Shown here one piece after another: positions 56,435 to 61,651 of a DNA stretch of 64,000 nt (positions are counted from its first letter, which is position 1; each line of letters begins with the position of its first letter). The notes beneath the pieces are model-generated. The model saw nothing but the letters and a program-made list of their open reading frames with translations. It made no database searches and had not been told where the DNA came from. This stretch comes from Spirogloea muscicola (lineage: Eukaryota; Streptophyta; Zygnematophyceae; Spirogloeales; Spirogloeaceae), in the NCBI GenBank assembly GCA_009602725.1, contig WELB01000001.1, positions 155,422-219,421 on the forward strand, in the 5' to 3' direction. Made by a program: the position numbers and the translations under genes.

Positions 56435-59400
56435 TCAGTTTGACTCAGCCAAATCCAGCACTGACTGGATACTACCAAGTTGTTGACTGGCCTTAACGAG
56501 CTGGCAGGCAAATGAGAGTGCTCGTCTCTCGCAGGTGGCTCTAATGTCTGGATCCGCTATGCTCTCCATATCCTCCACATGGGCGACACCAACAAGTCGC
56601 CTGCAGATCACAACTTACAGCTTGCTTGAGCCTGGGCATGAGTAACCAGTAACTTTGGTGCAATAGCCTTCTCAAATTTAGCAATCCAGCCAACTTGACA
56701 CAGGACTTCAGAGATAGCCCAGGACGAGCAACTACCAATGATTGGCCCCTCGAGTTTTGGCACCTTATGATTTTCGCGCCAGCAAACCCCATGGAGTCTT
56801 GAAATAGCTCCATCAGATACTCTCTCTGTGCCACTTCCTGCAAGTTACTGGTGTTGTACAGTGCCGTTGGATATGCATCTCCAACACACGTGGAAGCATT
56901 TGTCCACAAGCTACGGAATGAATCTGTGAAGATTGCCCAGGTATCACTGACCGTTTGCAGCAGCCAGCTTTTATATTCCTGCAAATTAGAACATTGACAT
57001 GTAGAGATAAGTACATAAGATAGGGAATTTAGCCTGCAACATGAGCCTACTATATGCTTTACTACACTGTATGGAGGGGCCTGACTTCTTACTACTGGAG
57101 ATACCTCAATCTCACTTTACCAAGGGGCCTGAAACTTTAGTACTGGAAGGAGCATATGCCTGTACCTCCCTAGGCTGCTCCTTGGTTGCATGACCATCTT
57201 GGCTGAAGTATGCCAGTAAGAGATTACCAATAAATGCTCCAACATCAAATCCCATAGGGCCATAGTAGGCAAACTCAGGGTCAATGACTTGAGTAGCATC
57301 CTCTGTTACCATTATGGATCCTGTGTGCAAATCGCCGTGCAGTAGAGCCTGGGTCCTCTCACAAAATCTGCCCCCTCAATTGTGTGGACAGTATCATAAG
57401 CAGGTCAGGGCATCCGAAGGCAGTCCAAGAGATCTTCATAGCCTTTGTGCAGCAACAGGCAGAGTTCTATATCAAAGAAATTAATTGGGACCACAGTTTT
57501 GGACATGCGAATGCTGCTGCACTAGGTTTGGCATTTCTGGCAGATTGTGCACATGGACCATGTGCTTACTTGGCCTTCAACTTGGCAATGGCAAGCTTGA
57601 GCTCATCATCTTCTCGCAGGCTCTTCACTTCGATGTCCAATTGAGGAGAAGTCCAGCGATTGTTAGGAGCCACCATGTAAGGCTCAGTAAATATGACCAG
57701 CTCCGTGAGGCGGCACATCTCGAAGTTGCCACAGTACTTGGCCACTGTCGTAGCAAGGCATGACACTCGTTAGAAAAGACTAAATTCCTAGTGGTGGAGG
57801 AGCTCCTCTCTTGAGTTTGCCCAATTTAGAGAGGACTAAGTAGCTGCCAGTTCTCTTTCTGGGTTGATTGAGCAACAGCTTTGGCAGCTGAAAAATGAAA
57901 AGCATATATAACAGAAGCAAGAAAGAGCATGCACAATAAGTGCAGTTCAAGAAGGTAATTCGTGAAGATAAGACCTTCTGCCTTATGCTCAGTTGTGGAC
58001 AGAGCAAGGAGAGACGTGTGGAACAGGGTGCTGGACATGTACTTGGCCATGTGCTGAGCAAGCAGTGGGTAGACCTTCCCAGCAATCAAACCCTTCCTGA
58101 GTATCTGAAAAGGTGGCTTGAGGTATTCCATTGCTGTAATAGCCATTACCCTATCTTCCAGGTACACTTCTGGAGCATGCTCGGGGCAGTATTTGCCATG
58201 TGTTTTCAGCGCACTGACTTCGTAAAAGGCCCGGTCCTTATTTAGCAGCCACGATTCGCCAAGGCAGCGGAGGTAGGGGAGGGCCTGCATTCAGGAAGCG
58301 GTCAGTGGTCTTCAACAGCTTGGAGAACCACTAACAACCAGCCTGACAACCTTCTGTTTTCTTTGCTCAAGCTGATCGGCAACAAGCGATCCTGCTTAAA
58401 GCCACAGCACACATCATACTTAATGATCTCTGAAATTGTCAAACTTCAAGATCAGAGGCTACCACCTGCTTGAGGACGAGAGCTCCAGATGGGCCCTCAA
58501 CAGTGTAGACGAAATTAACATTGCCATCCCCAACCTCACGTACACGCCACTCGCCCTTGCCGAGCCTGCTTGCCAGCTCTGTGTGTTCTTGCAGGTATTC
58601 TGAGACCAAGTTCTCATTCAGGGGTTGAAACTTGGTGTAGCCTTGACCTCTTCCAAGTAATCCTGCTGCTGTCTCTGACACAGAGCTAGAGTGACCTCCT
58701 TCATTGACTGACTGCAGAAAACCTGAAATGTCGAACACATCTTTCCCCTCTCCTTTCCTGATCACACCCTGCCATGATATTCAGGACATATGAGCAACAG
58801 ATGAAGGTTCCATCAATATGGGCATCCTTCTACGCTCATCAGCAGCTGCATCACTAGGCTAGAAGTGCACAGATGGCATTGTTCCTAGCGTGGACCACTG
58901 ATAGAGAACTACCTTGTCAGTAATGATCGCAGTTATCAGGCTGGCAGGAGTGACATCAAAGGCCGGGTTCCACACGTGCATTCCTCGAGGGGCGACCTCG
59001 GGACCATGGCCTCCCTGGGAATGAGTGAGCTCTTTTGGCGTGCGCTCCTCGATCACGATCTCCTTCCCAGAGTCGATCTTCGTGTCTATTGAAGTGAGCG
59101 GAGCCGCAATGTAGAACGGCATGCCATGCGCGGCAGCTGAGAGGGCCAGAGAGTAGGTCCCTATCTTGTTGGCAGTGTCCCCTGCAAGACAAGAGATCAG
59201 GGTGCTGCCTGTTGTCAGCTCAATAAGCCCAGGATGCGAATTCGACAAAGTCAGAGATTCATTCAGAAATCCTATCGAGAAGGGCTTTTGTACTCATACC
59301 ATTTTTTGCAATCCTGTCTGCCCCCACCACAACAGCGTGGATGCCACCAGTAATCTCGAGAGAAGCTGCTGCTGAGTCAGCAATCAGTGTTGCAGGTATA

Positions 59401-61651
59401 CCGTCGTGCATGAGTTCATATGCAGTGAGGCGAGAACCCTGCATTCATCAAGTAAAACTTTACTCATCAAGCAGGGAGACGATGTTTTCATGGACACACG
59501 ATGGACATTCATGGACATTCATGGATATTATGGTGATGTTGTATTGGAGAATGCATGGCTCTTAGCTATCAAACCCCTGCGACCAGGACCAGCTTTAGGT
59601 GCTGCTCAGTGAGCACTCTTCTTGTCAAGCAAATTCCTACTGACCATATGGTGACATTTGCTTGCAAAGCAAGCCCGTTTCTGATAACCTTTCTGCCTTC
59701 ACCTGATTGTAAGGACGGGTTTCTGTGCAGTATACCCTCTCCAGGAACCCTTGTGAGTGCAGTGTACGCATCACGCCCAGGGCAGTGCCGTACCCCGCCG
59801 TTGCCAGGCTGATAGAAGCATCATCACATCCAAGACATTCATGTGGTTCATGGTCAGCCTTTTGAGAAGAAGCGTGACCTGCATGCTTGATCTCACTCAT
59901 CATCCTTTGTTACTTCAAGCTGATGCTCCAGTGATCTTCACTATGGCATACAGGACTGAGCCTGTATCATTGAACTGGCTGAAAGTGGTTGTTACTGAAT
60001 TGATGGCAAAAGTAGGTACTTGTTTGAATATCGTGCAAGCATGCAAGATGGCTGGCCCTTGCTGACCTGCCAGTGTTGCAGTGGGTCAAGACCTTATATG
60101 GAGCCTGAACACGGCTCTGAAGGTCTTCAAGCATGGCTTGGCAGCCATACTTGCCTATGGCCTTATTTGCAGCTATGTCATCCTCAAGCATCCTCTCAGC
60201 AGCATCAACATAAGCCTGGCTAGGCACCCACAGCAGAAATGTCAGCCTTGTCAAGTGTCCTTGCAGTTGGAGTTGCTCCAGCCTTCTGGCCCGCTTGGAC
60301 ATTCAGCCCAAGAAATTTGCACCACTCTGGCTACCAGGTGGTACTGTTTCTTCTGCTCTTGAGGCCAGGGACGTCATGCACTAAATATGGGGCAGACATG
60401 TCTAGACAAAGACAAGGAGGAGGACTCTTGGCAAACTATTACGAATGACGGCTGTAAAGTGAAAGGCAAGCCAACTGCTCCAGCTCGAACAAAGATCTGA
60501 GAGGAGCCAACTCCTCAGCAATCCAGTAGTATACGGGGGGATGGAAAGCTAACCCACCTACCAGCAGCACATCCTCGGCACTTGCAGTATTGGCTGCGGC
60601 TTTGGCAGCAACCTCTTTCAACTTAGTGGCTGCATCTTGCAAGTTCACTGCTGTCGGCCGGCTGCACAAGGGCATGCTTTCTTTTACAAGACTGCCAACC
60701 TCCCTGTCTATTTGCTGTTGCTGCAATTGCTCCTGAGCTTGGTAGACCAGTGGCTGCATCAAATTTAGAGAGCTTTCATAGATGCGCTTAAATGTGTCAT
60801 ACAGAGATGTGAGACATTCTTTCAGTCAGAATGTTTGTAAGTAGGCCGACCTGGACACAAGATAGTCAAGTTGCTTCCTTATGTGCTCCAATGCCTCGGT
60901 TGGGCCACCAAAGGGGGGCTGCTTCACAACTTCCACTGCGAGTGTAAGTGCCGCTGCAATTGCGATAGCAGGTGCTCCTCGGACGACCATATCGTGGATA
61001 GCAGTCCTGTACAATCAGAAATGTTGTCCCATGCTTACACTGACGAGAGGTGCTGCAATACTAGGGTTCAGGATTTAGGATGCGTGTTTGATAAAATGTT
61101 GCAAGCAAGAAATCACTGGACGTGAATACATTGCTACTTTCTGGCTTGTGAACCCCTGATACACTTACTTCCAAGCAGTAACTTCGTGCTAAAGATGCAT
61201 TCTAACTGCGCTTAGGCTACTGCAAGTACTACTGAAGTTGGTGGCTGCGCCTGAAAGCGAGATTGAGAAGGCGCCAGCTAGCTTACCATGCTTCCTGAGC
61301 TGTTTCGACACTGAGGTATTCACTCGCATGAGGCAGCTTCCTCTGTCGCCGCCGCCAATTGCCACTCAGCAAATGTGAAGCACCAGCCATCAAAGCTGAC
61401 GTTATTGGTACTCGAGGATCTGATTGAAGCAATAGGAGCATTCTCTTTGCAGTCCGCAAACGTGAGCCTCCTACAAAGGCTGGCACCTTCATGGTCGACA
61501 GCTTGTGCCGCAGCAGTGCTGGTCAGCATCTGAAGTCTACCTGATCCAGCAGCTCAAGGCTGCCGCGGCTGTAGCGAATGGCCTGCAGCGTCCCGCCGCC
61601 GCCGCCATCGCGGCCACTGGCGCCGGCGCCGGCGCCGCCGCCGTCCACCAT
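56435..61651 (-). CDS. Fused methylthioribose-1-phosphate isomerase (MtnA) - methylthioribose kinase (MtnK)
   Basis: Fourteen minus-strand exons: 61651-61541, 61342-61287, 61006-60851, 60661-60562, 60215-60067, 59808-59703, 59438-59300, 59181-58913, 58768-58466, 58284-57975, 57744-57570, 57367-57166, 56978-56764, 56600-56435. All junctions are GT-AG and phases agree, giving 818 residues. Residues 1-381 are Mtn[26 protein letters not shown] with Cys187, [15 protein letters not shown] with Asp267, [10 protein letters not shown], ending [20 protein letters not shown] 26-residue linker follows, then MtnK (408-818): [24 protein letters not shown] (Asp637), D-P-E-F-A-Y-Y-G (Asp654, Glu656), ending near plant kinase length. 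The kinase phosphorylates methylthioribose with ATP and the isomerase turns the product into methylthioribulose-1-phosphate in methionine salvage. No targeting signal is evident; the Gly-rich N-terminus is unusual. Confidence 0.97.

Follow-up and report, generated by a model that had tools for sequence, protein, structure and literature searches.

Fusion of the two methionine-salvage enzymes methylthioribose-1-phosphate isomerase (MtnA) and methylthioribose kinase (MtnK) has been described under the name MtnAK in the ciliate Tetrahymena thermophila, in which MtnA forms the N-terminal and MtnK the C-terminal part of a single protein and both ends of one cDNA (EST) clone match the gene (Salim et al. 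2009, PMC2759508). Statements on this and the other papers cited here refer to the portions that were available. The same fusion was also listed for Ostreococcus tauri, Micromonas pusilla, Micromonas sp. RCC299, and Phaeodactylum tricornutum, which the authors termed plant and stramenopile species (PMC2759508). The first-pass annotation of the gene described here, which had the fusion known from Tetrahymena alone, is thus corrected by a paper that names three algae and a stramenopile besides the ciliate. The distribution of MtnAK was regarded as scattered and its full analysis as beyond the scope of that study, and the fusion was rated as more interesting as a phylogenetic marker (PMC2759508).

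In the portions that were available, a 2018 review (PMC6302742) and Nakano et al. 2013 (PMC3698126) mention MtnAK for Tetrahymena only, while other fusions in the pathway are represented by a plant aldolase-phosphatase fusion, the only one mentioned in PMC6079011, and by MtnBD (PMC3143110). Beyond PMC2759508, no treatment of algal MtnAK was recognised among the openly accessible papers that the literature searches listed, and later surveys may exist in subscription papers or preprints. In addition, the proteome of Nannochloropsis gaditana contains a protein cluster named methylthioribose kinase with a mass of 94 kDa (PMC7554720). This is near the mass computed for the whole fusion protein reported here (88.8 kDa) and about twice that of its MtnK half (46.6 kDa), so the Nannochloropsis entry may be fused, a hint of MtnAK in another stramenopile.

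Gene structure and the fusion exon

The window, i.e., the whole 64-kb stretch of DNA that was analysed, carries an MtnAK gene at 56435..61651 on the minus strand. An independent rebuild of the coding sequence from ATG to TGA (61651..56435) gave 14 exons with 818 codons plus TGA, which agrees with the single gene of 818 residues and 13 in-frame junctions proposed in the first-pass annotation and yields an NCBIfam match for each enzyme. Exons 1-8 (58913..61651, minus strand) encode the body of the MtnA isomerase, residues 1-362, and comprise 61651-61541, 61342-61287, 61006-60851, 60661-60562, 60215-60067, 59808-59703, 59438-59300, and 59181-58913. They are followed by the fusion exon, exon 9 (58466..58768, minus strand), and by exons 10-14 (56435..58284, minus strand; 58284-57975, 57744-57570, 57367-57166, 56978-56764, and 56600-56435), which encode the body of the MtnK kinase.

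All 13 introns, 118-346 bp in length, have GT...AG borders, and G+C content is 53% in exons versus 46% in introns. A stop in the incoming frame is present in 12 of them; intron 13 has none, but its length is not a multiple of three. Every one of the 13 exon junctions falls within residues aligned to solved relatives, either 20-380 (2a0u) or 406-813 (2pyw). The N runs of the window (4940, 21700-21923, 28506, 54368-54415, and 55369) all lie outside the gene, which rules out a scaffolding join as the cause of the fusion. When both halves were compared with the window by tblastn (E up to 1e-3), only the exons of this gene were matched. The motif TGTAA, the chlorophyte poly(A) signal, was absent from the gene strand between 60688 and 56619, but it was also absent from the stop codon to 55800.

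The joint between the two enzymes lies in exon 9, a 303-bp exon that contains, in this order, the C-terminal 19 residues of MtnA, a linker of 26 or 29 residues (depending on the choice of MtnK start), and the beginning of MtnK with PLNEN. As had been claimed for this exon, the frame used is open throughout, whereas the other two frames of the same strand contain stops; no in-frame methionine codon was found within the exon. Both enzymes are therefore found in one reading frame with MtnA first, in agreement with the description of MtnAK in the available part of PMC2759508, and as far as sequence can show the fusion appears to be real.

Comparison with the known fusions reveals both shared and distinct features. 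Similar to the present gene, Tetrahymena MtnAK (XP_001031773, 779 aa versus 818 aa here) is a single gene with N-terminal MtnA and C-terminal MtnK; however, it belongs to a ciliate and is backed by paired ESTs of one clone, whereas the present gene is known from sequence alone. The MtnAK proteins of Ostreococcus, Micromonas, and Phaeodactylum are alike by description, given in the available text without their domain order (PMC2759508).

Identity of the two halves

Both halves were assigned to their enzyme families by nearly full-length, equivalog-level matches, with scores well outside anything chance would give. TIGR00512 (S-methyl-5-thioribose-1-phosphate isomerase) matched residues 23-366 with 461.4 bits against a cut-off of 279 (profile positions 1-334 of 335), and TIGR01767 (S-methyl-5-thioribose kinase) matched residues 409-815 with 470.4 bits against a cut-off of 275 (profile positions 1-400 of 401), which bears out the proposed order of isomerase then kinase. 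The best solved MtnA relative was 4ldq (residues 21-368, 358 bits), and 2a0u could be aligned over residues 20-380. For the kinase half, the best solved relative was 2pyw (residues 406-813, 521 bits; 54.5% identity over 411 columns), which is labelled 'uncharacterized protein' in the PDB file and which we take to be Arabidopsis methylthioribose kinase. This chain resembles the C-terminal half, but it was solved as an unfused protein of 420 residues.

The key residues claimed for the two enzymes were also recovered. The MtnA half contains C187 in CNTG and D267 in GADR, presumably the active-site Cys and Asp, and the MtnK half contains HGDLHTGS from residue 635 (D637) and DPEF from residue 654 (D654), which we take to be catalytic; when each half was aligned with three bacterial proteins, none of these motif positions varied. 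At the level of Pfam, the two halves fall into the broad families IF-2B and APH, which include MtnA and MtnK, respectively. Because of the Pfam name IF-2B, the MtnA half is liable to be misannotated as a translation initiation factor subunit, and such naming has been reported in both Micromonas genomes (PMC2759508).

In 84 bacterial loci with an MtnK relative (including the best 80 of 573), best-segment identity to the kinase half reached at most 51.2% (median 44.4%), and the MtnA half had a maximum identity of 44.5% (median 38.7%) in the 48 of these loci with a match. The kinase identities, 54.5% to 2pyw versus a bacterial maximum of 51.2%, may agree mildly with a green-lineage label for the gene. 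Ostreococcus tauri, Micromonas pusilla, and Micromonas sp. RCC299 are green algae, and the present gene adds one more MtnAK to a fusion type known since 2009 from green algae, a diatom, and Tetrahymena. One more, probably algal, genome is thereby gained for the fusion, the discovery value of which is small given the 2009 report.

Bacterial loci and the origin of the fusion

Bacterial relatives were collected from two sources. A tblastn search of a plasmid collection returned 126 records, 93 of which matched 80% or more of the query at a single place. In all three annotated plasmid regions inspected, mtnK and mtnA were separate genes with mtnK first; a fourth record carried no annotation. A scan of genome contigs with an MtnK alignment found 573 relatives, of which the best 80, mostly proteobacteria by title, were kept. 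The resulting 84 loci are the nearest matches to this MtnK rather than a broad sampling of bacteria. MtnA was also present in 48 of the 84 loci (including the best 80 of 573 relatives), and none of these 48 contained a fused MtnA-MtnK. Separate genes in the order kinase then isomerase were detected in 42 of the same 84 loci (one of them, L010, with 1039 bp between the genes), the order isomerase then kinase in one (L058, 806 bp apart), and opposite strands in five; in the remaining 36, isomerase was absent from the available stretch, which in some cases was short. This tally of gene order is a small new result. Bacterial mtnK-mtnA pairs such as L001, L002, and L003 encode the same two enzymes with 40-45% identity per half, but they differ in having separate reading frames with the kinase first. 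As the commonest order among these closest loci is kinase-first, the fusion of MtnA then MtnK is not simply that order joined.

Other searches yielded no relatives. In a viral contig collection, the full-length protein query gave neither a pattern match nor a relative, and the MtnK alignment matched the pattern in 88 stretches, none of them a relative. In the genome contig collection, the full-length query had 17 pattern matches, none of them a relative; a query of this kind can pick up close relatives only.

An origin of the green-lineage fusion separate from those of Tetrahymena and the stramenopiles seems unlikely. Tetrahymena shares the domain order, MtnA then MtnK (PMC2759508), so the order does not point to independent fusion events; the lack of a fused bacterial donor (none in the 48 two-enzyme loci among the closest ones) neither supports nor excludes independence. 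An ancient eukaryotic fusion that ciliates, stramenopiles, and green algae share through inheritance or gene transfer, and that land plants have since split or replaced, is a similarly doubtful suggestion; if it were true, MtnAK would mark deep relationships or transfers between those groups.

With regard to the joint itself, it is possible that MtnK starts separately from an upstream exon. That adjacent MtnA and MtnK genes with separate transcripts were joined by mistake is highly improbable: the purely genomic basis of the gene model and the frequency of separate adjoining mtnK and mtnA genes in bacteria (42 of 84 loci, including the best 80 of 573 relatives) would allow it, but the exon spanning the joint can be read through in a single frame that has no methionine codon, an MtnA ending in intron 8 would lose its final 19 residues, and the MtnA-MtnK fusion has already been reported from other algae (PMC2759508).

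Predicted function

The gene is very probably a eukaryotic, and probably algal, MtnAK that would provide one polypeptide for two consecutive steps of methionine salvage. In such a protein, the C-terminal MtnK domain would phosphorylate 5-methylthioribose, and the N-terminal MtnA domain would then isomerise 5-methylthioribose-1-phosphate to 5-methylthioribulose-1-phosphate, corresponding to the successive steps from methylthioribose through its 1-phosphate to methylthioribulose-1-phosphate (PMC2759508). Both the single transcript and the two activities are predictions. The likeliest benefit of the fusion may be co-expression in a fixed ratio, as one polypeptide would imply a ratio of 1:1, an argument that has been made for fusions in general (PMC2759508). 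Physical channelling between the two domains is possible but unsupported. MtnA enzymes are oligomeric, and several kinase domains would therefore be clustered in the fusion protein.

Other features of the window

On the strand opposite to the MtnAK gene and roughly 2 kb away from its end, a frame at 54282-55169 (+) encodes the initial half of a DnaJ domain (PF00226, E 2.1e-12, profile positions 2-34 of 63); the N run at 54368-54415 lies shortly before the domain, which may be cut by an intron. A lysine-methyltransferase-like frame was found at 19885-20598 (+) (PF10294 Methyltransf_16, E 1.5e-13). In addition, 14161-14766 and 32870-33504 (+) share 71% identity over 637 columns and lie inside the frames 13884-14729 and 31906-33444, respectively, neither of which had a Pfam family above the cut-off. 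Shorter copies with 91-98% identity were detected at 13786-13859, 15220-15289 (inverted), 31086-31159, and 34168-34226, and the whole set looks like a dispersed mobile element.
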